Shown here piece after piece: positions 6,408 to 27,548 of a stretch of DNA of 32,569 bases. The DNA is taken from assembly GCA_025361625.1 (NCBI GenBank), contig JANYKL010000156.1, positions 1 to 32,569 of the forward strand. The letters run 5' to 3'. The first letter of the stretch is position 1. Every line of letters starts with the position of its first letter. A program made the position numbers and the translations under genes. Origin of the DNA: Acidobacteriaceae bacterium. GTDB taxonomy: Bacteria; Acidobacteriota; Terriglobia; Terriglobales; Acidobacteriaceae. The notes beneath the pieces are model-generated. The model was not told the DNA's origin, made no database searches, and was given only the letters and a program-made list of their open reading frames with translations.

Positions 6408-7031
6408 ATGGGAGTCAACTTGGGCGCTTTGCGATTTTCAACAAGGTTTGCCATCGTGTCGCTGCTGTGCGCGAGCCCGTTACTGGGACAAGCTGTATAC
6501 CGTGGCGCGAACACTGCGGTAAGGGGTCCTGAATATGACGTCTCCGTAGGGTACAGCTACGCCGGCTTGAGTTTTTCTGGAAAGCCAACGGTCAATATGC
6601 AGGGCGTTGACCTTGGAGCAACGGTTGACTTCACTCCGCGATGGGGAGCGACTCTGGATTCCACGTATGTTCGCGCGGGCAGGGACTCGCGCTCGGGTCA
6701 CGGTACCTACGCGATAACTTCTCTTGCAGGTCCGGTGTTTGTTCTCGCGCAGAACGAGAACACCCAAGTGTTTGTTCGTGCCCTCGCCGGCGTTAGCCTG
6801 GTGGATGGTTCGGTTCCCGTCGGTCAACTGTATTACAGGGGATGGCTGACGCGCTTCTCCTGGGCGGTAGGAACCGGGATAGAACACAACATTTCTGGGC
6901 CATTCGCAGTTCGCATTAACGTGGATTACCTGCGCACGAAATTTGTGAGTTCGTCTCTTACCGTGCAGCCGCAAAATAACGTTCGCGTGACGGGGAGCTT
7001 GGTATATCGGTTCGCTGCTCCTCGCCACTAG
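6408..7031 (+). CDS. Outer-membrane beta-barrel protein (OmpA/OmpW-like porin fold)
   Basis: A 207-residue protein with an N-terminal signal peptide (hydrophobic stretch ending near ASPLLGQA). The rest shows alternating polar/hydrophobic strands typical of an eight-stranded outer-membrane barrel, for example YDVSVGYSYAGLSF, VDFTPRWGATLDSTYV and RINVDYLRTKFV. It ends with a last strand, VTGSLVYRF, followed by five residues. The small-barrel length fits the family. It lies 11 bases after the Big_2 lipoprotein gene and is probably co-transcribed with it. I cannot assign a specific function. Confidence 0.75.
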   Translation: MGVNLGALRFSTRFAIVSLLCASPLLGQAVYRGANTAVRGPEYDVSVGYSYAGLSFSGKPTVNMQGVDLGATVDFTPRWGATLDSTYVRAGRDSRSGHGTYAITSLAGPVFVLAQNENTQVFVRALAGVSLVDGSVPVGQLYYRGWLTRFSWAVGTGIEHNISGPFAVRINVDYLRTKFVSSSLTVQPQNNVRVTGSLVYRFAAPRH

Positions 7032-7317: not shown

Positions 7318-10300
7318 TTAGAAGCTATAACGCAGAGCGAACTGCATCACGCGCGGCTTAGTCATCGTCGCCGTGTATTCCCCAAAGGTAGATCCGCTCG
7401 AGACACTGTTGTTGCCGGCAAATTGCATGCTGCCGACATCGAAGCGGGGGGTATTGGTGACGTTAAATACGTCCCAATTGAAACGCAAAGTCTGTCGCTC
7501 GGTAACATTCCACGTCTTTGCAAGGCCCGAATCCAATCCTATGTAGCCCGGCCCACGCAGATTGTTTCGTTCTCCCGATTCGCCGGGATACGCAACACGG
7601 AAGGAATGCGCGACCGCGGTCGGATCACCCTTGAACACATTGGGATTTCCGCTTGGGTCAGTGAAGACTCCCGTCTTGGGTTTCGGACCGACAAGGACGT
7701 CGGCAGAGGTCAATTGCCAGTTCGTAGCCCAGAAACCAAGTCCAGGTTCGACGCTGAAGGGGTAGCCGCTCGTCCAACGGAAGATACCTGACAGCGACCA
7801 GCCTCCGAGCACAGCTTGACCGATGCCATGTAAGTCGCTGGCAAAGCGCTTGCCGTGGCCAAACGGCAGCTCGAATACCCAGTTAGAGTTTAATTGATGT
7901 CTGGTGTCGTAATCGGAAACCGAGCGAAGCTGCTTCGGCGACCACGAGTTGATGACTTGACTGGCAAAACCAAAGCCCTGAAATTCATTAATTCGCTCAG
8001 CGTTGGAACCGACGTCAATCGATTTCGAAAAAGTATAATTAACATCGAAATCGACGCCCCGCCCTTTATGTCGCATGGTCAGTTGCAAGCTGTTATACGC
8101 GCTGTTTCCGATGCTCCGCCACGCATACAGAGAAGACCACTGCGGAGAGAAATATGCATTAGGCCCTAACTTAGAGCAGGCAGGAGAGCAGATGCCTGGT
8201 AGATCAAGATTAAAGAGTGCGGAGGTCTCGTTACCCACGTTACAACTCCACATATCGTAGATGGACTGGGTAGCGGTTGGAGTGCCGGTAAAGGTCGAGG
8301 AGCCCGGAGCACAGCCTGAACCCACAGGAACACCGGCGGCACCCGGGAACATATTCTCCCAATACGGAATTGGAGCTAGATTGCTGATGTCCGTACCCGC
8401 ATTTGACGCCTGCGATAAGAGTGTCGCGGCTTTGAAATAATCCATTTTGGAGCTGGGGTCGACAATATCCAACGGCATCCCCAGGTCTTCTTCTTGTAAC
8501 AAATGATGACCCATTCGCCCGATGTAGGAACCCTCCACCACAAAGCCGCCCGGTAATTCATGTGTAAGCGAAAAGTCAAAAACTTCAGAATATGGGGTTT
8601 TTATTTTGTCATCCATTCCCCAAGTAATTGAAAACCCCCCTGTATCCAAGGTTGAGGGCGGTGTTATCGGAAAACCTCCTGTCGGAGGAGCAATGACCAA
8701 ACTGGCTGGAACAGTATTGAGACCGGAGAATCTCGGTGCATTGTCGGGCGTCAGCACGGCGGCGGGATTGGAGAGCTGCGTCGTCAGTCCGAACGATCCG
8801 TTCTTGTCAAATGAATTGACGATGCCTTCGCCGAAGTGATCATAATAAATCCCAAAACCACCTCGAACCGAGGTCTTGCTGTTGCCCCCCGGCGACCATG
8901 CAAAAGCAAATCTGGGGGCGATATTCTTATAGTTCCATTCCCAGTACGGACGGCCGTGATTGGCTTTGCCGATCAAACCGATATTCAACAATGGTTCAGT
9001 CCCTTGGCCTTGCACCATGGATGCGGCTCGCTGGTTGAACCAACTATTGATGCTTGTTGTCGTGCCAACCTCGAGTCCGGTTGTTTCATATGGGGGCTGC
9101 AGCAAGGTGTAGCGGGCGCCAAACGTCAATGTCAGATTTGGACGCACCCTCCATGAGTCCTGGAGGTAAGTTTCAAATTCGTTGGATTTAAAGTGCCGCT
9201 TTGCAGGCGCCCCCTGAGCCAGAACCGACCCGCTTTTGGTTCGATTGTAGTTTGAAAAACCTTCCGAGACGATACCTGCCAGCGTTGCCATTGCCAGGTT
9301 GTAGGCTTGCCCATTTAACACCGCGGGGAAACCGAACTGAGCTGGATCAAGGCTCTGTTTAGTATTGGCAAAACCGGACAAAGTGAGCCACGATGGATTT
9401 GTTTCCGCACCCAGATAGGAAAGATCATTGCTGGCACGAATATCGTTAATGATGCGCCAGTTACCACCCACCTCGATTGTGTGGTTTCCTCTCTTCCAGT
9501 TCACGTCGTCTACGAGATTGTGAACCGGGGTCAGCACCTGGTCAGAGCTGCTAAACCCTTGAACATTGTCCAGTCCGCGAAAGGTTATGAAAGGCTGCGT
9601 CTGCAAACCACCCGCGTCGCTGTTCACGCGAAGATAGCCATACCGCGCATTGTTAATCAGGTTATTTGAGATCGTCCAGACGTGCCCAAAAGCGATTCCT
9701 TTTGCATTGTTCCGATTCGTAATGTTAGCTGCCTGCCCGGGAAATTCAGGAGCGCTGGCAGCATTCGGGAACACGAGATTGTCATTCTGCAAATTGCCTC
9801 GTACGTACACGCTTTGACGCGGAGTGAGGTTCGCATCGAGTTTGACGATGTAGGTATCCAACTTCGAAGGAGTAGCGGCGGGGAATGTGAATCCCACAAA
9901 GTTGAGGCCGTCGCCGGCGTTTGTGGTGTTGGGCGCGGGATACATATTCAGAACCTGCAGCACGGCCGGATTTACGCCTGGACCTAAAGGACAGGTTCCG
10001 TTGCCGGTGCACACAGGATCCATGCTCGCGATCTGCGTGGGATTCAACTGCTGCAGATTGTGATTGGTATCTGTGTATTGGATGATTCCGCTTCTCAGCA
10101 GCAAGCTGGGAACGGTGCGCGTCACTTGAAGGTTTTCGTGAGTGCGTTGACCTTCATACGTTGCGAAAAAGAACAATTTATCTTTAATGATCGGTCCACC
10201 CACAGATGCCCCGAAAGTATTTCGAATCAGCTGACCTGGCCGGTTTGATTGTCCATTTGAGAGCTGTGACTGTTTATTGAACCAGTCATTGGCCTGGCCG

Positions 10301-11091
10301 ATATTCGAGCGGTTGTATTCATAGGCGGTGCCGTGAAAACTGTTGGTACCACTCTTCGTGACGAGCGAAACTTGTGCTCCCGAGGACCGTCCCGCATCAG
10401 CATTGGTGTTACTGGTGGCAACTCTAAATTCTTCCAGGGAATCAAGCGTCGAGCGCAGAGCTCCAGTGAAAGCGAACCCGCTATTCTGATCGTTATCGTC
10501 AACTCCATCGAGCGTTACGTTTGTCTGATCGCTGCGCGCGCCGTTGACTGATCCACCTCGGCTATCGTAAGACTGATCCACTTTGTCTCCGCCGACAAAG
10601 GAGACTCCGGGCTGAAGGCTCAGAATTCCGACAGCATCGCGGCCTTCGAAGGGAAGGTTCAATAACTGTTTCGAGTCGAATGCGTTGCCGATAGAGGCAT
10701 CCTGGGTATTTACCAATTCAGCTTGCCCCTGAACTTCCACCACCGTAGAGGAACCCCCAACGGTTAATTTGAGATTCTGAGTGGCAGGAGTGTTAACGAG
10801 CAATTGTGCGTTTGCGATCTTGGCAGCGGCGAACCCGGGGGCTGTGACAGTGATATCGTAAGTGCCCGGCGGGATCTGGAGGAACTCGTAGCCTCCTTCA
10901 TCGTTTGACTTGGTGGTGCGAGTAAAGCCGGTACCGGCGCTATCTATGGTCACCGTTGCGCCAGGCACGACGGCGCGATTCGGATCAGAAACCGTCCCGT
11001 GCAGAGAGGTAGTAGCGACTTGCCCCCAGAGGATAGAACTGGCGAATGACAACATCGCGGCAGCATGAAGGAATTTTTTTAGTAGAGTCAG
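7318..11091 (-). CDS. Oar-like TonB-dependent receptor with N-terminal carboxypeptidase-regulatory-like domain
   Basis: A very large outer-membrane receptor of about 1257 residues, typical of Acidobacteriota, presumed to import a carbohydrate or other large nutrient with TonB energy. After the signal peptide comes a carboxypeptidase-regulatory-like/CarboxypepD_reg domain (LHGTVSDPNRAVVPGATVTI and onward to about residue 110). Next is the plug (including GRDAVGILSLQPGV and NVTLDGVDDND) and a long C-terminal barrel ending in ALRYSF, with the terminal Phe needed for Bam insertion. The first ATG (11055) would give a signal peptide lacking its basic end. A CTG at 11091 sits six bases after GGGGAG (11098-11103) and yields a complete signal peptide with two lysines, so I use it. 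The frame is intact over 3.7 kb. Upstream is an 18-bp palindrome at 11119-11136. Confidence 0.9.
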   Translation of the reverse strand: MTLLKKFLHAAAMLSFASSILWGQVATTSLHGTVSDPNRAVVPGATVTIDSAGTGFTRTTKSNDEGGYEFLQIPPGTYDITVTAPGFAAAKIANAQLLVNTPATQNLKLTVGGSSTVVEVQGQAELVNTQDASIGNAFDSKQLLNLPFEGRDAVGILSLQPGVSFVGGDKVDQSYDSRGGSVNGARSDQTNVTLDGVDDNDQNSGFAFTGALRSTLDSLEEFRVATSNTNADAGRSSGAQVSLVTKSGTNSFHGTAYEYNRSNIGQANDWFNKQSQLSNGQSNRPGQLIRNTFGASVGGPIIKDKLFFFATYEGQRTHENLQVTRTVPSLLLRSGIIQYTDTNHNLQQLNPTQIASMDPVCTGNGTCPLGPGVNPAVLQVLNMYPAPNTTNAGDGLNFVGFTFPAATPSKLDTYIVKLDANLTPRQSVYVRGNLQNDNLVFPNAASAPEFPGQAANITNRNNAKGIAFGHVWTISNNLINNARYGYLRVNSDAGGLQTQPFITFRGLDNVQGFSSSDQVLTPVHNLVDDVNWKRGNHTIEVGGNWRIINDIRASNDLSYLGAETNPSWLTLSGFANTKQSLDPAQFGFPAVLNGQAYNLAMATLAGIVSEGFSNYNRTKSGSVLAQGAPAKRHFKSNEFETYLQDSWRVRPNLTLTFGARYTLLQPPYETTGLEVGTTTSINSWFNQRAASMVQGQGTEPLLNIGLIGKANHGRPYWEWNYKNIAPRFAFAWSPGGNSKTSVRGGFGIYYDHFGEGIVNSFDKNGSFGLTTQLSNPAAVLTPDNAPRFSGLNTVPASLVIAPPTGGFPITPPSTLDTGGFSITWGMDDKIKTPYSEVFDFSLTHELPGGFVVEGSYIGRMGHHLLQEEDLGMPLDIVDPSSKMDYFKAATLLSQASNAGTDISNLAPIPYWENMFPGAAGVPVGSGCAPGSSTFTGTPTATQSIYDMWSCNVGNETSALFNLDLPGICSPACSKLGPNAYFSPQWSSLYAWRSIGNSAYNSLQLTMRHKGRGVDFDVNYTFSKSIDVGSNAERINEFQGFGFASQVINSWSPKQLRSVSDYDTRHQLNSNWVFELPFGHGKRFASDLHGIGQAVLGGWSLSGIFRWTSGYPFSVEPGLGFWATNWQLTSADVLVGPKPKTGVFTDPSGNPNVFKGDPTAVAHSFRVAYPGESGERNNLRGPGYIGLDSGLAKTWNVTERQTLRFNWDVFNVTNTPRFDVGSMQFAGNNSVSSGSTFGEYTATMTKPRVMQFALRYSF

Positions 11092-11097
11092 ATGAGG

Positions 11098-11103
11098 CTC
11101 CCC
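11098..11103 (-). promoter_or_regulatory. Shine-Dalgarno supporting a CTG start of the TonB-dependent receptor
   Basis: On the minus strand this reads GGGGAG and is followed by six bases and CTG at 11091. The extra codons give TLLKKFLHAAA ahead of the ATG at 11055, completing a classical n-region plus h-region. The region between CTG and the nearest upstream stop (11131-11133) has no ATG, GTG or TTG start with comparable support. Confidence 0.5.
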
Positions 11104-11118
11104 GCCTGCAAAATTTCG

Positions 11119-11136
11119 TATTAAATCAATTTAATA
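11119..11136. promoter_or_regulatory. 18-bp A/T palindrome upstream of the receptor gene
   Basis: TATTAAA-TCAA-TTTAATA is a perfect inverted repeat with 7-bp arms, 16 bases upstream of the receptor's Shine-Dalgarno. The position suits an operator or a site overlapping the promoter. The cognate regulator is unknown. Confidence 0.4.
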
Positions 11137-11416
11137 TGAGTCTTTTTGAAGTGACGGATTTTAGCAACAAATAATCACAGAATACAAGCAGAAATGTGTT
11201 GTTGTTCATAGTTGCAATAATGGCTTGACCAGGAATAACCGAAACCGAAGCTAGCGTAGGGCTGCCAGTGATGTCTGTAAAAAGGGGGCGGGGCGACAAG
11301 AAGAATAACGCACAGGCGAGGAACTGCTCGAAGTAAGGGGCACACCTGACAAGGCGGCGGTTGGATCGGTCGTGCGTAGAGGGCGGTTTGATAGACTAAT
11401 CGTGTTCCCTCAAGAA
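11137..11416. other. Intergenic stretch between the receptor gene and tRNA-Thr
   Basis: No gene is evident. It should carry the receptor promoter on the minus strand and the tRNA promoter on the plus strand. A G-rich run occurs at 11283-11293 and T/A-rich patches near 11140-11175. Confidence 0.35.
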
Positions 11417-11492
11417 GCCGACGTAGCTCAGTTGGTAGAGCAGCCGATTCGTAATCGGCAGGTCACCAGTTCAACTCTGGTCGTCGGCTCCA
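11417..11492 (+). tRNA. tRNA-Thr (anticodon CGT)
   Basis: A complete 76-base cloverleaf. The acceptor stem pairs GCCGACG (11417-11423) with CGTCGGC (11482-11488), followed by discriminator T and an encoded CCA. The D-arm is GCTC...GAGC. The anticodon arm is GCCGA-TTCGTAA-TCGGC with anticodon CGT, reading ACG (Thr). The T-arm is ACCAG-TTCAACT-CTGGT. It is the apparent attachment site of the island whose integrase starts just downstream. Confidence 0.96.
11447..11465 (+). repeat. Candidate attL core: 19-bp direct repeat inside tRNA-Thr
   Basis: ATTCGTAATCGGCAGGTCA, covering the anticodon loop, its 3' stem and the variable loop, recurs exactly and in the same orientation at 27493-27511. Integrases of the tyrosine family commonly cross over in the anticodon loop of tRNA genes. 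The integrase gene faces the tRNA 3' end, as expected for attL. Confidence 0.6.
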
Positions 11493-11518
11493 TTCCTTCA
11501 ATCACTTACGCCTCTTGC

Positions 11519-12541
11519 TCACTGCACCGTCAAATCACTGTGACGTGAATTGTGACGTAGATTGCGCTGTTCAATGGCTTCGCGGATGGGTTCAATGCCC
11601 GGATGTTGATACCGCATTGAGGTGCGCACATCGCTGTGGCCCATCACCTTCATCACCATTGCCAGGTTGCCGGTTGCTTCATACGCTGCCGTACCAAAAA
11701 TATGGCGGGCGCAATACAGTACCAACGACTCAGGTAGACCGAGCTTGCGACGCGCTTCCCGGAACTGCTTCGCCACGGTCGTCAAATGACCTCCAGCCGC
11801 CCTAGTAGACGGAAAAAGCCAGCCGTCACGTTTGCCCGCGCTACGGACCATCAACAGGTCAGATATTCGCCCACTGATTGGCACGTGCCGACGGGATGCT
11901 CTGGTCTTACCTCCAGGATTGAAGATAATCCCACGGACCCAGTCGACGTTCTCAAGCCGAATGCGAAAGACCTCCTCAGGACGCATGCCTGTGTCCTGTA
12001 TCACGATCAGGACGTCCTTCATCGGTTGTTTTGCGATCGCGAGCAACTTCGCCTCGGTCTCGGGACTAATCGTTTGTTCCCGGCCCAGTTCCTTCATCAA
12101 CTTGACCCGTGGCACTGCGGTTATGACGTTCCATTCCACCGCCTTGCCAAGCATTCTTCGCAGCGTGCGAAGCGCTTGGTTGACGTAAGACGGAGAACCT
12201 TTCAGTCTAAGCGAGTCGACTTCTTCCGTTGTGATTCGGTCTAGGCTCATTTCGACCAGCGGAGTTCTGCCAATTTGATCCCAGCCTACGCTGTAGTAAC
12301 GCCGTGTCTTCGGAGCGAGATCTCGCGCATGTTGTACCCATTCCATAAATCGCTGACCGAAATCGCCGAGCAACGGTGCCCGACGTAACACAGCTCCTGG
12401 TCCTCGTTCTTCTGCTTTTGCCACCAGCTTCGATTCGATCTTCCTAGCCCTAGACTCCGATGATTCGTAGGTCGTACCTCGTTGGCGCCGACCCGCGACC
12501 ATGAAATCGTAGTGCCAGACATTGCCTCGCCTATACAGCAT
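11519..12541 (-). CDS. Tyrosine recombinase / phage-type integrase
   Basis: A 340-residue site-specific recombinase that would integrate and excise the island at the neighbouring tRNA-Thr. An N-terminal arm-type DNA-binding part (LYRRGNVWHYDF) is followed by a SAM-like core-binding domain and the catalytic domain. Catalytic residues visible are Arg I in DTGMRPEE, the beta-hairpin Lys in GGKTRASRRHVPI, the box II segment YCARHIFGT (Tyr in place of the usual first His, Arg and His kept), and GHSDVRTSMRY with the His and the nucleophilic Tyr. The ATG at 12541 is chosen because GGAGG lies six bases upstream; the longer frame to 12619 adds a tail unlike the family. It overlaps the end of the excisionase-like gene by 11 bases, so the two are probably translated together. 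Confidence 0.9.
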   Translation of the reverse strand: MLYRRGNVWHYDFMVAGRRQRGTTYESSESRARKIESKLVAKAEERGPGAVLRRAPLLGDFGQRFMEWVQHARDLAPKTRRYYSVGWDQIGRTPLVEMSLDRITTEEVDSLRLKGSPSYVNQALRTLRRMLGKAVEWNVITAVPRVKLMKELGREQTISPETEAKLLAIAKQPMKDVLIVIQDTGMRPEEVFRIRLENVDWVRGIIFNPGGKTRASRRHVPISGRISDLLMVRSAGKRDGWLFPSTRAAGGHLTTVAKQFREARRKLGLPESLVLYCARHIFGTAAYEATGNLAMVMKVMGHSDVRTSMRYQHPGIEPIREAIEQRNLRHNSRHSDLTVQ

Positions 12542-12740
12542 CCTTGGCCTCCATGTATGCCCGCACGGAAGGAGTTCGGCGATTGCGTTGAATGTACCGC
12601 AAAACGTCCTCCTCGGCATAACGGATTGACCCTTCCATCTTGATCCAGGACGGGCCTACTCCGACCTTCCGCCAGTAGCGCACCGTGCCTTCTGGGACGG
12701 AAATCATTTCGGCCAGCAATTTGGTCGTGAGAAGCTTCAT
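12531..12740 (-). CDS. Excisionase-like helix-turn-helix protein (AlpA/HTH_17 type)
   Basis: A 69-residue DNA-binding protein with a winged MerR-like helix-turn-helix: LLAEMISVPEGTVRYWRKVG forms the HTH, followed by a basic wing and EEDVLRYIQ. Small proteins of this kind next to integrases act as excisionases or recombination directionality factors. It overlaps the integrase start by 11 bases on the same strand. Confidence 0.8.
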   Translation of the reverse strand: MKLLTTKLLAEMISVPEGTVRYWRKVGVGPSWIKMEGSIRYAEEDVLRYIQRNRRTPSVRAYMEAKDAV

Positions 12741-18015: not shown

Positions 18016-18945
18016 TCAATGAGCCGTTTCTCTCGCGCCCTTCATTTTGTAGAGTGCGTGATCCGCCATGCGCAGCAGATTTTCAACGGTTTCGCCATTT
18101 CGAGGGTGAATCGCAACGCCAACGCTGACAGAAAGCCGTGGCTTTTCGGTATCATTCGCCAAGCTGTCGCAAACCCGCCGAGCCACCAACCCCGCCGCGT
18201 CTGCTCCTGTCTCCGGCAGAACAAGTGCAAACTCGTCTCCGCCGAATCGCGCCGCTGTATCAATGTCTCGCGAGCAGATGCGCAAGGCGTCGGCCAGCCT
18301 GCAAACCGCCTTGTTTCCTACCAAATGGCCGTGACGGTCGTTGATGTGTTTCAGTCGGTTCAGGTCAAGTAATAACAAGGCGAACTCGCGTCCGGTCCGT
18401 TCAGACCGTTTGATTTCGGTGCTGAGCACGCCTAAAAGCTGGCGATAGTTGGACAGACCAGTCAGCGCGTCGTGCGTCGCCTGCCGCCGCAGTTGACTCT
18501 CCAGTGCGCGCTGTTTGGTGACATCCTCAACGATGAGCTCGTAGCTTTCCCGCGCTCCCTGCTCGGCGCAAACTTTGCGTCCGGCAAGCCGGACTCGCAC
18601 GGAAGTCCCGTCGTTTCTCTTCCATTCCGTCTCGAAGGCTTTGATTCGATCTTTATGGCCGAACTGCCCTAGTATTCGTGCCCGCGTAGTGGGATGCAGA
18701 ATAACCGCGCTCGCGAGGTTAGCTGCCAAAAGTCCTTTCTTAGATGTGTACCCAAGCATAGTCATTAGTGCCTGGTTGACATCCAGGAAGCTGCCGTCTG
18801 GGCTGCATCGGCAGATTCCGTAGAATAGGTTTCCGATCAAGGCGCGGTATTTAGCTTCTGAATGTTTCGACATTTTCTCGGCCCGATCGCGCTCCACGCG
18901 CAGGTTTCCGTCGTTGGCCACCGGAAGGTAACCGATATAATCCAT
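18016..18945 (-). CDS. PAS-GGDEF diguanylate cyclase, N-terminally broken
   Basis: Up to 309 residues of a cyclic-di-GMP synthase. A PAS domain spans roughly residues 30-145 (AKYRALIGNLFYGI, then DGSFLDVNQALMTMLGY). The GGDEF domain follows (about 155-305) with HDALTGLSN, the metal/substrate segment DLNRLKHINDRHGH, and an intact active site RFGGDEF (235-239). An RDID motif at 226-229, five residues before GGDEF, is a classical product-inhibition I-site. The first residues (YIGYLPVA...NLRVERDRAE) are not a natural start: they continue a response-regulator receiver whose earlier parts lie in two other frames (18945-19019 and the tail of the histidine-kinase frame). The catalytic part could still be made by internal initiation, for instance at the ATG before SKHSEAKYRAL. 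Confidence 0.75.
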   Translation of the reverse strand: MDYIGYLPVANDGNLRVERDRAEKMSKHSEAKYRALIGNLFYGICRCSPDGSFLDVNQALMTMLGYTSKKGLLAANLASAVILHPTTRARILGQFGHKDRIKAFETEWKRNDGTSVRVRLAGRKVCAEQGARESYELIVEDVTKQRALESQLRRQATHDALTGLSNYRQLLGVLSTEIKRSERTGREFALLLLDLNRLKHINDRHGHLVGNKAVCRLADALRICSRDIDTAARFGGDEFALVLPETGADAAGLVARRVCDSLANDTEKPRLSVSVGVAIHPRNGETVENLLRMADHALYKMKGARETAH

Positions 18946-19019
18946 TTTTCTATATAGTTGGAGGCACTCCCTGTAATGAACTCCACCACGCTTTCTCGTT
19001 CAAGGGTGTCGATGACGAA
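18945..19019 (-). pseudogene. Middle piece of a receiver domain, in a third frame
   Basis: This short segment reads FVIDTLERESVVEFITGSAS then NYIEK, which matches the part of a receiver domain after the beta-4 strand ('FVSGT.GEE.AVEA...GA.DYV.K'). Its left neighbour, ending KQMPLI, is in the histidine-kinase frame; its right neighbour, NIGYLP-like, is in the GGDEF frame. Two frameshifts (near 19019 and 18945) therefore separate what was once one receiver-PAS-GGDEF protein. Confidence 0.6.
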
Positions 19020-19911
19020 TGAGCGGCATCTGCTTCCCTGATTGATGGAGGGGTTCCAGGGCCTGCGTCCCCTCCCAGTTGGGACTGAGGTAGTCGGCCA
19101 CAACAAGGTCATGGGGCTGCGAACTCAGCCGGGCAGTCAACTGCTCGGAGGCAAAAGGCAATCGCGCAACGACCATCGTACCCGTTACGCTGGAACGTAT
19201 TTCCAGTTGGCCGCGAAACTGTCCCGCTCTTTCTCTCATTCCTCTCAACCCAACCCCTGACGGCCGTTCAATAGGCATTCCTTTGCCCTTGTCCTGAACC
19301 TCAACTCGAATCTCAGAGGGGAAACGCAACACCTCGACTCTAGCCGTTTTGCTACCAGAGTGGCGATGAATGTTCGTTAGACACTCCTGAACGATACGGA
19401 AAATTGTGGTTTCGAGATCTATCGGCAGTCTTCCAAACTCATTAGACATGACCAGCTCGACCTTAATATCACCCCGCCCGGAAAACCCATCCAAGTACCA
19501 TCGAAGAGCCGAGGCAAGTCCCGATTCGTCAAGCAGCGGAGGGTGGAGCAAATGAGAGACTATTCGGACTTCTTTGAGCGTTTTCTGCACCAGGTCAGCA
19601 GCCTGGTAAAGAGCCTTGGCGGCCTCGGGGCTAATGCTGCTCGATTCCTTTGCTACCAATGCTAAATTCATAGTCGTTGCGGCCAGCAACTGTCCCGCGC
19701 TGTCGTGCAAGTCTCGTGCTATTCGGCGTTGTTCGGTGTCCCTCAACGTCAGCAGTCTGCCGCTAAGTTCTCTAAGCTCATCCTCAGCCTTTCGCCGGTC
19801 GTGAACCTCCTGTCGAAGCGCGGCGGTGCGCTCTGCGACCTGCACTTCCAGTTCTTCCCGGGAAATACGCAGTACTTCTCCGGCGGCCTTTCGGTTCTCA
19901 ATGTCACTCAT
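19000..19911 (-). CDS. NarL-type sensor histidine kinase fused to a truncated receiver
   Basis: A soluble histidine kinase of 303 residues from the ATG at 19911. A coiled coil (about 10-50) leads into a HisKA_3 dimerisation domain with the phosphoacceptor in RRIARDLHDSAGQ (H69). The HATPase_c domain has the N-box ECLTNIHRHS (N180), DKGKGMP and GVGLRGMRER. No sensor or membrane domain is present. From about residue 255 the sequence changes to a receiver-type half domain (HDLVVADYLSPNWEGTQAL, phosphoacceptor-like D273) that stops early at a frameshift. This looks like a deletion that joined the kinase to a neighbouring receiver-PAS-GGDEF gene, losing the receiver's first third. The open frame extends to 20142, but I prefer 19911 because a 46-codon ORF with a strong Shine-Dalgarno ends there with an ATGA overlap. 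No partner response regulator is nearby. Confidence 0.8.
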   Translation of the reverse strand: MSDIENRKAAGEVLRISREELEVQVAERTAALRQEVHDRRKAEDELRELSGRLLTLRDTEQRRIARDLHDSAGQLLAATTMNLALVAKESSSISPEAAKALYQAADLVQKTLKEVRIVSHLLHPPLLDESGLASALRWYLDGFSGRGDIKVELVMSNEFGRLPIDLETTIFRIVQECLTNIHRHSGSKTARVEVLRFPSEIRVEVQDKGKGMPIERPSGVGLRGMRERAGQFRGQLEIRSSVTGTMVVARLPFASEQLTARLSSQPHDLVVADYLSPNWEGTQALEPLHQSGKQMPLIRHRHP

Positions 19912-20048
19912 ACGCGCCCCATTGTGTGAATGCACGACGGACGCCACAGAACCGTCGGCGTGCGATCGCAAGGGACTAGGCGAGACCTCGATGCCACGCG
20001 TGAGAGAAGTCTGTGGGCTACCATCGCTGCTTTCCTCGTCTTTTTCAT
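19908..20048 (-). CDS. Possible 46-aa leader peptide overlapping the histidine-kinase start
   Basis: A short minus-strand ORF starts at ATG 20048 just after AAGGGAGGGG (20051-20060), the strongest Shine-Dalgarno in this area. It encodes a basic peptide beginning MKKTRKAAMVAHRLLSR. Its TGA (19908-19910) overlaps the ATG of the kinase (19909-19911) as ATGA, the classic arrangement for translational coupling. It is not similar to anything I know. Alternatively it is a frameshifted N-terminal extension of the kinase. Confidence 0.4.
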   Translation of the reverse strand: MKKTRKAAMVAHRLLSRVASRSRLVPCDRTPTVLWRPSCIHTMGRV

Positions 20049-20128
20049 TTCCCCTCCCTTTGCCGGGATTGGGCCAAATTATAAAATACGCCACAGAGTG
20101 ATAAAGACGACAGCGATCACTCTTAGCT

Positions 20129-20142
20129 GTGATCACGGTCAC
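20129..20142. promoter_or_regulatory. Crp/Fnr-type operator upstream of the kinase/leader ORF
   Basis: GTGATCACGGTCAC, extended to TGTGA-N6-TCACA at 20128-20143, is a near-perfect Crp/Fnr-family site. It lies about 80 bases upstream of the leader ORF start and next to the 3' end of a decayed minus-strand gene. Confidence 0.6.
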
Positions 20143-20158
20143 AAACGGTGAAGCGAGA

Positions 20159-21255
20159 TTACCGATTGGAAAAACCGCCTTCTGCGATCTGCAGATCGAG
20201 GCTCACGCGTTCGCCATTAATCAACACAGTTCCTGCGTCGATCAACTGCTGACCGGTACAGTCGTAGCGGGCGTAACAGCGCAGCGCGTAGAAGGGAAAG
20301 AAGAATTCTACGGCCTTGGAACTTTGACCAGCGGCGACTTTGCCAGCGAGATGGAGGTTGGCGCTGAAGCCGATGCCGTCGAACTGAAACTCGCTCTTAA
20401 AGTAGCCGAGAACGGGGCGCAGCAAGTGAGCGACGTCATCGTCGAAGGCAAGGGCCGCCAGGCGGTAGCGCGACGCGGTTTGAGACTCGGGAAGTGTGGT
20501 ATCGATCGAGAGTTCGAGGTACGTGTCGCCGCGAAACGCGACGAAGTTTGGCGCAGCGGAGGAGACAAAGTGTGCCTGCGGATCAAGTTCCTTCACCATA
20601 CTATCGAGGATCGGCTTGAGTTCGGACTGCAACACAGAGAGTGCTTGCGGCGACGTATCGCGGACTGGCGGCGGATCGGCGGGCTTGGCAGGCTTCAATG
20701 CACGCACGTTGACGGGGCTCCGCAGTTTGTCTGTGTCGTCGCCGTCGTGACGGAATCACGACCACCAGGTTTTCGGGGCGCTCGACCCCGAGGCCTCCTA
20801 CCTTCCCCAGTACATGGTGCGAAATCTCGAACGCATAAGCTTGAACGCTGGCTTGTTCTGAAATCGGTTGACGGCGGCTTTCAGAATGGGCTTGATAATG
20901 CGCAGAAAAGTTTCGCGAGCGCGCTGATCGGGATTCATCTTCTCGCCGGAGTATGCGGCGTAGTGGTGCCCGTAATCTCAAGGACAACCTTGCCTTTGTA
21001 GTGATCGAACTGAATTGAGCGCTGGTCCGCCCACTTCTGCTTGGCTTGGTCAAGATCGAGCTTGCGGCTCAGGTAAAAAGGATAATCGGTTGGCAGTGAA
21101 AGAATGTCGGCGCCGAGTTCTTTAAGAGCATCCATGTTGCGGTCTTGCAGGATGCGCAGTTCAGGATCTTTGATCTCGCTGGGAGCAGTCACTTGCGCTG
21201 CGGCGGCGGAAAAACTCAGGATTAGGCACAGCGGGAGCAGGTTATTTCTTCGCAT
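20159..21255 (-). pseudogene. Secreted protein of unknown function, broken by three frameshifts
   Basis: Pieced together, this would be a secreted protein of about 365 residues of a type I recall as common in Acidobacteria. The start has a signal peptide (MRRNNLLPLCLILSFSAAAA, ATG at 21255). It continues through KDPELRILQDRNMDALKEL and KGKVVLEITG; then, in a second frame, SGEKMNPDQRARETFLRIIK; then, in a third, AYAFEISHHVLGKVGGLGVE; and finally a 3' part including SSAAPNFVAFRGDTYLELSI and a beta-rich tail. Breaks are near 20964, 20840 and 20755. Each frame resumes exactly where the previous one ends, so the protein was intact recently. Function unknown; no enzyme motif is seen. Confidence 0.65.
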
Positions 21256-21733
21256 AGACGGACCCGGTTGTCCGGTAAGGAGGATCAGAATCAGCACGAA
21301 TATACGTCTCCGCAGGGGAGACAGTTACCTCGTCCCTCCGCGAACCTGGAGAAAATCGAGCGCGAACACATCCTCCGTGTACTGCGACAAAGCAGAGGGA
21401 CATCGAACAGAAATTCGTAAGTATAGCTGCAATACCTGCCACGAAAAAATCGGGCGGTCTAGGCGTCGCGGCTGAGCGCTTGGGGATGAACCGCAAAACC
21501 CCTGAACTCGAGAATGCAGAAGCTGAAGATTTCCCGAAAGAAGTTTTGAATCTTTGCACATCTCCTCGGGTTTAGGGGTCACGTTGGTCTGTGACTACGA
21601 TCACTGCGTGCTTTTCTATCCTCTGCGAATCTATTAATGCAGCGCTGGCCTGGAGGCTTCTGGCTGGGCCACAAAATAAGGCTGAGGCGGCCAATCCGCC
21701 GTTGCCAACGCGGACAATCTTAGAAAGCGAGAT
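21256..21733. other. Divergent intergenic region ahead of hsp20
   Basis: No gene is recognisable. It should hold the promoters of the decayed secreted-protein gene (minus) and of hsp20 (plus). A small hairpin, GTCTCC-GCAGG-GGAGAC, lies at 21306-21322, and the Crp/Fnr-type site at 21591-21604 is listed separately. Confidence 0.4.
21591..21604. promoter_or_regulatory. Crp/Fnr-type operator upstream of hsp20
   Basis: GTGACTACGATCAC matches the shared RTGAY-N4-RTCAY pattern. It lies 130 bases upstream of the hsp20 start in an otherwise empty intergenic region, a suitable position for activation. Confidence 0.55.
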
Positions 21734-22263
21734 ATGACAATGGCGACGACTACAGTCCTACAGCGCACGGAAGAGAAACCCGCAACGATCCACCCCGTGA
21801 AATTCGAAAACCTGGCCGAGCAAGTGGACAGAATATTCACAATGGTTGCCGAGCGGGCATACGAGGTCTTCGAGGGCAATGGCCGAACCTTTGGTCATGA
21901 TATCGAGGACTGGTTCAAGGCTGAGATGGAGTTGCTCCATCCCGTTCATGTCGAAATCGCCCAGGCAGCTGAGGAACTTAAAGTGAAGGCCGAAGTTCCC
22001 GGCTTCAGCGAGAAGGAAATCGAAGTCAGCGTCGAGCCGAACCGGTTGACCTCACTGGTAAGCGCGAAACCAACAAAGAAGAGAAAAAGGGCAAGACGGT
22101 CTATCAGGAGTTCTGCTCCAACCAGATCTTGCGAGTCGTGGACCTGCCGGTGGCGGTTGATGCCGACAAGGTTACGGCTACTCTGGAGAATGGCATCCTG
22201 CAGTTAACGATGCCAAAGGCCGCGAAGGGCAAGACTATCGAAATTAAGTCGAAGGCTGCGTAG
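21734..22263 (+). pseudogene. DUF2934-Hsp20 small heat-shock protein, single frameshift
   Basis: A small heat-shock chaperone of about 176 residues if repaired. Residues 30-70 form a DUF2934 module (RIFTMVAERAYEVFEGNG then FGHDIEDWFKAEMEL), an N-terminal fusion I recall from Acidobacteria and Proteobacteria. The alpha-crystallin domain starts at VHVEIAQAAEELKVKAEVPG and reaches VEPNRLT. Near 22051-22056 one base appears lost; the next frame continues exactly with TGKRETNKEEKKGKTVYQEF, ILRVVDLPVAVDADKVTATL and ENGILQLTMPK to a TAG at 22261. As read, the product loses the second half of the crystallin domain and should not assemble. A sequencing error would explain it equally well for this one gene. 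Confidence 0.75.
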
Positions 22264-22817
22264 TTTTGCTGATGTAGCTCAAAGGCACGCTTCCATCGGG
22301 GCATCAGGTGATGTCATCGCTCGGTAATATCTCGTCTTGTCACTTGACTGCGCCGTCCTTGCTCTCCGCTCTATCCCTTCGATCTAAAACCTTGATTTAG
22401 CCTCATATTTTTAATCGGTTAGTTCGTCGATGTGCCACAAACCGTTTTGGTAAGCGGCATGCACCTGGTATGCCGAAACTAAGGATTACAAGTCAAGACA
22501 TGATCGATTTTGCGGCACGCCTTTTCGCAAGTGCTAATTTGTTGGACCTGGCAGCGTATTCAAAGTTCTTCATAGCGTCTTCCTCTCTCATGCTGGAAAG
22601 ATCAAAGGCGACACAATATGCTGGCGATGATGCGGAACCGAGCGAAATTACGATAGCGAACCGTTGTCCTCATATGTGCGAACGATCACTAACCTATGTG
22701 TTTCACATCACTGCATCATTGTGGGCGCGTCGTAGATACTGAGCAATGTTAGAGGCCGTTTTCTCCGGCCGGTTAGAGCCGGGCGAAACAGGCGCTTTAC
22801 GCATGGAGGATAACAAA
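22264..22817. other. Non-coding stretch between hsp20 and the BON-domain gene
   Basis: No recognisable gene. A 90-codon plus-strand frame (22470-22742) has no domain and no Shine-Dalgarno. A short inverted repeat ATGTG-TTT-CACAT lies around 22696-22708. The promoter of the BON gene should be near its right end. Confidence 0.35.
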
Positions 22818-23474
22818 ATGATGAAGACAAATGTGCAACTTCAGCGAGATGTCATAGACGAGTTGCAGTACGAACCGAGTATCCAGGCTGCCGGGATCGG
22901 GGTTACGTCCAAGGACGGAATCGTTACTCTCACCGGTACCGCAAAGAGCTATGCCGAGAAATGGTCGGCAACGCACGCAACCGAACGGGTCTCAGGAGTG
23001 AAGGCTGTGGTCGACGAGCTTAAAGTAGATCTGCCTTACGCGCACGAGCGTCACGACCAAGACATCGCCAGGGCGTCAGTACAAGCTCTTGAATGGGATG
23101 TGCAGGTGCCCAATACCAGAATCATGGTGGAGGTCGAGCAGGGAACGATCACCCTTAAAGGAGACGTCGACTATAAATACGAACAAACTGCGGCGAAGAA
23201 CGCGGTTCGCAACCTAATGGGCGTCAAGGCGGTGATTAACTTGATCAACGTAAAACCGATCGCCAATCCCTCAAACGTGAAAGCCGAAATCGAGAATGCC
23301 CTGCGGCGTGCCACCGCACTCGACGCGCAACGGATAGTGGTAGATGTGGTTAACGACAAAGTAACCCTGCGTGGGAGCGTGCACTCATGGGCAGAGCGAA
23401 ATCAGGCGAGACGGGCCGCTTGGTCTGCCGCGGGAGTGCGACTGGTTGAGGACGATTTGAGCCTCGCCGCATAA
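22818..23474 (+). CDS. Protein with three BON domains
   Basis: A 218-residue protein made of three consecutive BON domains (about 1-70, 75-145 and 150-218). Each has the family pattern of a helix, 'I.V...G.VTL.G.V', a helix and a glycine turn: GIGVTSKDGIVTLTGTAKSY, MVEVEQGTITLKGDVDYKYE and VVDVVNDKVTLRGSVHSWAE. BON domains bind membranes or lipids and occur in OsmY-like stress proteins; here there is no signal peptide, so it may stay cytoplasmic. The start at ATG 22818 follows GGAGGA seven bases upstream; an in-frame start at 22746 lacks this. It sits downstream of hsp20 in a stress-gene neighbourhood. Confidence 0.88.
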   Translation: MMKTNVQLQRDVIDELQYEPSIQAAGIGVTSKDGIVTLTGTAKSYAEKWSATHATERVSGVKAVVDELKVDLPYAHERHDQDIARASVQALEWDVQVPNTRIMVEVEQGTITLKGDVDYKYEQTAAKNAVRNLMGVKAVINLINVKPIANPSNVKAEIENALRRATALDAQRIVVDVVNDKVTLRGSVHSWAERNQARRAAWSAAGVRLVEDDLSLAA

Positions 23475-23871
23475 AAGAGACCATGTCGTAGTTGCATTTT
23501 CGAGCAGGCTGCTAGGTGGGCACCAAGAGGACTGGGAGCGAAGGTTCAAAGATGGACTTCTCGACTCCCAGTTTGTTTGCTGGCGCGTGTTTCTATGGCC
23601 CTCACTAACGCTCCGAAGCCATTCTAGTCCAAACAGCATTTCTCATATGAAATCTGACTGGGTAAAACGCTGCTGTCGTAGCTTGCTGCCGATATTTGGC
23701 AGGTCTTGCGGTGACGAACATATATCGTTGAGAAATCACGATCTTTGTCAATGTTAGCCGGTGAGGCGTACAAGCGCAAACGAGGAAAAGTGTGCTTCGT
23801 CACACTTCATGACCCCCGTTCGTGGGCCCGTAGCCCTCTAGCACCTTGATCTAGGGGCAGCGTTAAATCGG
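23475..23871. other. Non-coding stretch after the BON gene
   Basis: No recognisable gene. Short frames on both strands have no domain. A 7-bp perfect inverted repeat is listed separately. Confidence 0.35.
23788..23807. repeat. Perfect inverted repeat, 7-bp arms
   Basis: AAGTGTG-CTTCGT-CACACTT. It lies between convergent genes and partly resembles a Crp/Fnr site (TGTG...TCACA), but the left half lacks the GTGA core. It could be a hairpin or a degenerate operator. Confidence 0.4.
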
Positions 23872-24450
23872 CTATCGGGAGGCGGCCGCATCCCCGACCA
23901 GAGCGACGCCATTGCGATAAGGGTGGTCAATCGCGTTTGGAAGCCGAGCTGGGCGCGCAACGCCGGATTGCGGCCCGCACAAAGCGCTACGAGCCTCGCT
24001 TCCACTTCGCTGGTTCCACCAGACTGGGCAATTTTGGCTTTCGGCTTGGCTCCAGGATCGATATGCTGAACGGTCGCGCCGCGGCGAACGTCTGCCCCGG
24101 CGGCGGCCGCTGCCGTCGCGAGCAAGGCCTCTTGCGCGAGCGAATGATAGAAGGCCCACATCCCGGAAGCCTGCGGCGTCATTGCGACAAAATAACGCTT
24201 CATTGCGTGCTGGCCGTTGATGATCAGATTGACCCACCTCATTTCGTTGGCGCATGTGCGCAAAGCGTCGGCCACATCCAGTTGACGCGCTTCACCCACT
24301 CCCCACGGCTGCAGACACTCACCGCGAATGCGATCGCGAAATTCGGTTTCCTGCTCCAGTACCGGCACGCGCGCTCCGCTTTTGGCCATGCGCTGCGCCA
24401 GCGTCGCCCAATTGACGTAGAGGGCCGCTCTCCCATTGCCATCTTTTAAG
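23872..24450 (-). pseudogene. Remnant of an FAD-dependent monooxygenase
   Basis: The minus strand reads as the middle part of a PHBH-type FAD-dependent monooxygenase. TLAQRMAKSGARVPVLEQE follows where the GxGxxG loop should be, then IRGECLQPWGVGEARQL, SGMWAFYHSLAQEALLATA, and, after a frameshift near 23935, DHPYRNGVALVGDAAASR with the GD motif that contacts FAD ribose. A stop follows at once, so the substrate-side C-terminal half is missing, and the N-terminal dinucleotide-binding loop is not recognisable either. The fragment cannot be an active enzyme. Confidence 0.7.
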
Positions 24451-24527
24451 GGGAATGCTCATGCTTGCTCATGATGCCGTAGGCACCCGCACCTTCGTGG
24501 CAGAGGTGGTCCATTACAATAGCCACC

Positions 24528-25232
24528 GTGCCGGAATCCACGCTCACCCCTGCGCAGACGCTCGCGAAGGTCCCTATCTTCTCGGGGCTGACGGACAACG
24601 AATTGAGTTTTCTTGCACAGCGCGCAGTGGCGCGCCATTACTCGACGGGCGAGAGCGTGTTCGGCGAAGGTGACCCTTGTTCTGGACTCTACGTCGTCGA
24701 GTCGGGCCATGTCCGAATTTTCAAGAGTTCGGTTAACGGGCGCGAGCAGGTACTCAGCATTGATGGTCCGGGTGGTTCTATCGCGGAGCTTCCGGTCTTT
24801 GATGGGGGAAACTACCCGGCTTCGGTAACTGCGATTGACGATGCCACTCTGCTTTTCGTCAGCAAACAGGATTTTCAAGCACTGTGCCTCGCGCATCCCC
24901 AAGTGGCACTGAAGGTCTTGCGTGTGGTCGGAGCGCGCCTACGCAAATTAGTAGGTATTATCGAAGAGCTCTCATTCACCACAGTGCGTCACCGGCTGGC
25001 TTCGTTTCTGTTGCGTCTCGCGCAAAAGGAGGGTAAGCGATCTCCTGCAGGCGTGGAAATCACATTGCCCATCAGCAATCAGGAATTGGCCTCCCAGATC
25101 GGCACGGTACGCGAACTGGTTTCCCGCAATCTTTCCCGCTTACAGTCGGAAGGAATGCTTAAGGTTGAAGGCCGCACGGTAACGATCTTAAGTTTGAAGG
25201 GTTTGGAAGCCGAAATAGACACCCCCGAGTAA
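24528..25232 (+). CDS. Crp/Fnr-family transcriptional regulator
   Basis: A 234-residue regulator. Residues 15-125 form the effector-binding beta-roll (FSGLTDNELSFLAQRA, GEGDPCSGLYVVESGHVRIF), then the dimerisation helix and a winged HTH with recognition helix GTVRELVSRNLSRLQSEG, followed by the wing KVEGRTVTIL. It lacks the N-terminal cysteine cluster of the other Crp/Fnr protein in this window, so it senses something else (heme-NO as in DNR proteins is possible, not shown). The start is a GTG at 24528 with weak Shine-Dalgarno. It precedes the RIC gene by 137 bases, with a Crp/Fnr-type palindrome between them. Confidence 0.88.
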   Translation: MPESTLTPAQTLAKVPIFSGLTDNELSFLAQRAVARHYSTGESVFGEGDPCSGLYVVESGHVRIFKSSVNGREQVLSIDGPGGSIAELPVFDGGNYPASVTAIDDATLLFVSKQDFQALCLAHPQVALKVLRVVGARLRKLVGIIEELSFTTVRHRLASFLLRLAQKEGKRSPAGVEITLPISNQELASQIGTVRELVSRNLSRLQSEGMLKVEGRTVTILSLKGLEAEIDTPE

Positions 25233-27240: not shown

Positions 27241-27548
27241 TCGTCCGACGAGCAGATCGGCAAGCACACCCAAAACAGACGGAGCAACTTTGAGATTGGA
27301 ATCGCGTATCGCCGCCGCGAGCACTTGGGCCTTGGGGGAATCCAGCGGTCTAGATATCCATAACATTGAAGATAAAGGAAAGATGATTTTACGGGGGAAA
27401 ATCCGGATGCAGCCACGCAGACTAAAATTCAACAACCATGGCGCGATCCCACCTAGACGGTACCGATGTGCCGACGTAAATTCGATACGCGAATTCGTAA
27501 TCGGCAGGTCAGCGATTAAGCCCGCACCATGAAGCACCGCGCCTCTAT
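27241..27548. other. Stretch around the proposed right end of the island
   Basis: No gene is recognisable. It holds the 19-bp tRNA-derived repeat at 27493-27511. A long minus-strand open frame (27070-27798) crosses it but is antisense to the cytochrome gene's 3' part in a different frame and has no domain apart from the permease fragment. Confidence 0.4.
27493..27511 (+). repeat. Candidate attR: copy of the tRNA-Thr core
   Basis: ATTCGTAATCGGCAGGTCA, identical to 11447-11465 and in the same orientation. The bases to its right do not form a T-arm or acceptor stem, so the displaced tRNA 3' half is absent or eroded. Confidence 0.55.

Follow-up and report, generated by a model that had tools for sequence, protein, structure and literature searches.

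Probable translation of a large TonB-dependent receptor gene from a CTG codon in an uncultured acidobacterium

A large gene for a TonB-dependent receptor, on the minus strand of the window (the whole stretch of DNA analysed here, 32,569 nucleotides), is probably translated from a CTG codon (CTG 11091); this is the best reading of the sequence comparisons presented below. The codon follows a Shine-Dalgarno (SD)-like motif at the normal spacing and corresponds to the position at which homologous genes start, where the window gene itself has no usable canonical start (ATG, GTG or TTG). CTG is a permitted start codon in NCBI translation table 11. The most likely mechanism is ordinary SD-directed initiation on CUG at a reduced rate.

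The receptor gene, its 5' end and its surroundings

The source organism is an uncultured acidobacterium; the closest named relatives are metagenome-assembled Acidobacteriaceae. The receptor contains an N-terminal carboxypeptidase-regulatory-like domain (CarboxypepD_reg, PF13620, 73.1 bits with a cut-off of 32.3) and a C-terminal outer-membrane beta barrel (OMP_b-brl_4, PF25183, 503 bits, covering profile positions 1-838 of 838). Receptors of the Acidobacteriota with PF13620 and PF25183 carry the label 'Oar-like' and, by family, the protein is a putative TonB-dependent transporter. A phmmer search (E 0.01) returned no solved structure matching it. Within the same genome, 40 stretches match the receptor, three of them at E=0 (the window gene counted among these three). 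Past the 3' end of the gene, on the opposite strand, the segment 4669-7031 (+) encodes a protein with six Big_2 Ig-like stretches and, adjoining it, a small beta-barrel protein (6408-7031).

Table 1. Coordinates of the receptor gene and of the elements at its 5' end
Feature	Position in window	Strand	Remarks
Oar-like TonB-dependent receptor	7318..11091	-	1257 codons counted from CTG, plus stop; PF13620 + PF25183
Putative signal peptide read from CTG	11020..11091	-	(f)M-TLLKKFLHAAAMLSFASSILWG-Q; two lysines, hydrophobic core, terminal Q as in relatives
ATG expected from a standard gene caller	11053..11055	-	No SD; within hydrophobic core
Proposed start codon CTG	11089..11091	-	35 codons before landmark (see text); sole start-like codon there with SD pairing
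SD-like GGGGAG	11098..11103	-	6 nt before CTG; -7.3 kcal/mol; spacing of GGAG core within the family's usual range
In-frame TAA closing the open frame upstream	11131..11133	-	

On the minus strand, GGGGAG (11103-11098) is followed by CCTCAT (11097-11092) and then by CTG (11091-11089), which confirms the six-base spacing proposed in an earlier, sequence-only reading of this DNA. The receptor frame contains no ATG, GTG or TTG between the upstream TAA (11133-11131) and ATG 11055, which is in frame with the CTG and 12 codons downstream of it. Duplex energies were computed against the usual anti-SD sequence, the 16S tail of this organism being assumed (no 16S was found in the genome); with this tail, they are -7.3 kcal/mol before the CTG and +1.3 kcal/mol before ATG 11055. 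The predicted local RNA structure around the start is weaker than in about 80% of the homologues, and such a weak leader structure may be a mild help to initiation. A scan of the minus strand from 10900 to 11600 for promoter-like sites found none, although this is a weak test. An assembly indel in the A7 run was rejected as an explanation: translations of the other two upstream frames, inspected by eye, contain no ATG start at the right place.

The layout of the N-terminus read from the CTG fits that of the signal peptides of its relatives, as judged by sequence comparison rather than with a predictor; that of the closest relative is MRSGSHAVSVAAVLVLFVGSVAWS-Q. The net charge of the first 12 residues is +2 from the CTG, a value shared by 82 of 137 homologues. 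From ATG 11055 there are only 12 residues up to the Q, with a charge of 0. This difference in charge (+2 versus 0) fits the proposal that the codons added by the CTG complete a basic n-region, truncated if the ATG is used. A standard gene caller would pick ATG 11055 and cut off half of the putative export signal.

The region upstream of the gene has features of its own. A tRNA-Thr(CGT) gene (11417-11492) is followed by a gene of the phage integrase family (11519-12619, minus strand), and tRNA positions 11447-11465, in the anticodon region, recur as a perfect 19-base copy at 27493-27511. The segment 11417-27511 looks like a 16-kb genomic island with its two attachment sites and an integrase next to the tRNA, with a G+C content that is alike inside and outside. 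It includes genes for a DUF2934/HSP20-like protein, a triple BON-domain protein and a Crp-like regulator (18016-25232), and a histidine kinase and a GGDEF protein are encoded close by; the genes at 18016-25232 could be stress-response cargo. Upstream rearrangement was discarded as a cause of the unusual start: the tRNA-Thr and integrase genes lie at a distance of over 300 bases, and the receptor gene is not part of the island-like stretch, so that a displaced 5' end need not be invoked.

Start positions in homologues and the expectation by chance

We compiled 154 homologous 5' ends: sets of 30 (window gene included), 25 and 19 loci, 20 paralogues from the genome itself and 60 further stretches. 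Removal of 15 duplicates and of one locus without a 5' end (L046) gave 138 distinct sequences, that is, the window gene and 137 others, including the 20 paralogues. These were drawn from the top of the match lists; most matches with lower scores, as well as some that were partial or interrupted, are not included. Of the 138 (window included), 116 reach at least 40% identity where they align within the first 330 residues. Distances are given as codons back from a landmark, residue 36 of the protein read from the CTG. The rule used to select the 'best' start includes a bonus of 2 kcal/mol for ATG, a value of our own choice.

In the 137 others, the best canonical start is mostly located at 33-39 codons, with a mode of 34-36, and its SD energy is -5 kcal/mol or better in 131 of them. 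In the window gene, the CTG is at 35 codons and ATG 11055 at 23. The starts of most homologues thus sit at or around the codon equivalent to the CTG (33-39 versus 35). The sequence-only reading had suggested examining whether orthologues have ATG there: ATG is the best start, around the equivalent place, in 117 of the 137, the others having GTG (14) or TTG (6). For example, the arrangement in the nearest relative (L031, whose protein is 76% identical) is GGGAG-N6-ATG, as against GGGAG-N6-CTG in the window, an identical layout in which the start codon differs by a single base.

A canonical codon occurs 27-65 codons before the landmark in all 137 others and in this range the window gene has none. 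Because the range is so wide, the presence of such a codon somewhere within it is partly expected by chance; position and pairing are the telling part. In five of the 138 rows, including the window, a canonical codon at 15-26 codons has better pairing than any at 27-65. Orthologues starting at the position of ATG 11055 would have argued for that codon, and these rows do not clearly provide them: the other four also have an upstream candidate, and we take their pairing at 15-26 codons to be probably a matter of chance within coding sequence.

None of the 137 homologues compared clearly uses CTG. One relative (L050, from the Tolsyn genome) offers no more than weak canonical starts between 27 and 65 codons (GTG at 39, -1.9 kcal/mol) together with a CTG at 47 codons (-6.0 kcal/mol), a possible second CTG start. 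There is no sign of an extra-strong SD that would compensate for the CTG: pairing is weaker than -7.3 kcal/mol in only 20% of the 137, and the SD of the window gene is therefore weaker than that of most homologues.

To put the SD-CTG pair in context, we sampled the same genome: about 430 kb of it, together with the window, yielded 305 long open frames (the sampled stretches include two pairs that share 3-4 kb, and a few frames may have been counted twice). CTG represents 2.6% of codons in this sample. Equal or better upstream pairing is found for 107 of 1385 interior CTG codons (7.7%), and pairing as good or better for 272 of 3455 CTGs outside genes (7.9%). The resulting chance of an SD-CTG is approximately 0.002 per codon; over distances 27-48 (22 codons) it amounts to 0.04-0.05 (about 0.045), and over the three modal positions to about 0.006. 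The pair by itself is therefore only moderately unlikely; the weight is carried by its match to the start position of the homologues and by the missing canonical alternative. A strict filter (SD-CTG and no good canonical start) leaves three of the 305 frames, among which the window gene is, on our reading, the sole clear one. Inspection of the other two proteins favours a later canonical start in each; consequently, no genome-wide habit of starting at CTG is seen.

Alternative explanations and likely consequences

The main remaining doubt is a one-base consensus error or a minority variant, the organism itself having ATG (or GTG/TTG) at 11091. The genome is a draft in 196 contigs with a completeness of 95.7%, a change of one base is enough to convert ATG, GTG or TTG into CTG, and all the other homologues in the comparison possess a canonical codon within the range. 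Nevertheless, an error can hit any base and would have had to land on one start codon and give CTG, and the rest of the gene is free of frameshifts through its 1257 codons. We regard this explanation as unlikely.

The start may instead have been truly lost, the CTG being a recent mutation in a nearly silent gene that is becoming a pseudogene. In published assays CTG initiates very poorly (PMC11497404, PMC4633059), and the many paralogous receptors of the genome could cover for the loss. However, the open frame is intact and both the SD and the putative signal peptide remain in place. Between the window gene and L031, dN is 0.18 and synonymous change is too large to be computed, which points to a protein kept by selection. 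With the second-closest distinct relative (L033) as third sequence, over the first approximately 387 codons in which it is in frame, unique changes number 30 in the window protein and 24 in L031, and there is thus no clear acceleration in the former. These comparisons suggest that the protein was kept until recently; present expression is another matter. Since a very recent loss leaves no trace, this explanation is only partly excluded, but we consider it quite improbable. L033 itself has an apparent frameshift (its N-terminal frame stops at codon 387, beyond which homology resumes in another frame), which may be either a sequencing error or decay.

Translation from ATG 11055, as standard gene callers would have it, is extremely improbable: that part of the frame contains no other ATG, but this one has no SD pairing, leaves 12 residues without positive charge before the cleavage region and lies 12 codons downstream of the start position of the family. 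Hardly credible to the same degree are ATT 11130 and ATA 11121, upstream of the CTG, which are near-cognate and in frame (ATT functions with an SD in mycobacteria; PMC4633059) but lack SD pairing (-0.9 and -0.7 kcal/mol) and are situated at least ten codons upstream of where the family starts.

If the receptor is translated from CTG 11091, the 30S subunit would dock on GGGGAG and the initiator tRNA would pair imperfectly with CUG and insert formyl-methionine. The product would carry a Sec signal peptide of roughly 23 residues with a basic n-region. Substitution of one base in an ancestral ATG (or GTG/TTG) would have produced the codon, and initiation would be lower than in ATG-started relatives. 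Reduced expression of the receptor, suggested in the sequence-only reading, is plausible. From one genome one cannot distinguish between a low rate that is tolerated, one that is useful and one that is the first step towards loss. It appears improbable that, instead of being a neutral accident, the CTG has been selected as a low-efficiency start that damps one receptor among many paralogues that would burden the outer membrane if overproduced.

Relation to known CTG starts and to Oar-like receptors

Published data count against a CTG start. In a mycobacterial selection with an SD, CTG represented 0.03% of recovered starts compared with 20-29% for ATG, GTG and TTG (PMC4633059), CUG initiation complexes are less stable (PMC11497404), and a change to CUG is extremely rare, being recorded for 2 of 61,358 ancestral AUG starts (PMC5622118). 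Bacterial CTG starts have nevertheless been described, so that the window gene is a new example and mainly an annotation correction; a literature search with limited terms turned up no CTG-started acidobacterial receptor. The likely N-terminus of one large receptor is corrected by 12 more residues, giving a complete predicted export signal. The gene is also a clean case, obtained by comparison, of a CTG start that would escape standard gene callers. A single case by itself changes little and is a tidy, minor oddity, but the comparison used here (a homologous start position with an SD-CTG and without a canonical codon) could be scaled up to list true CTG starts.

The window gene differs from known bacterial CUG starts in that it encodes a very large acidobacterial outer-membrane receptor and that its start is inferred from 137 homologues. 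It resembles them in the arrangement of an SD followed by CTG at normal spacing, with formyl-methionine presumably inserted. Compared with the Oar-like TonB-dependent receptors of the Acidobacteriota, it is the only one of the 138 without a canonical start in range. It shares their domain order, their length and a putative signal peptide that ends before Q, and its genome, like theirs, contains dozens of paralogous matches.
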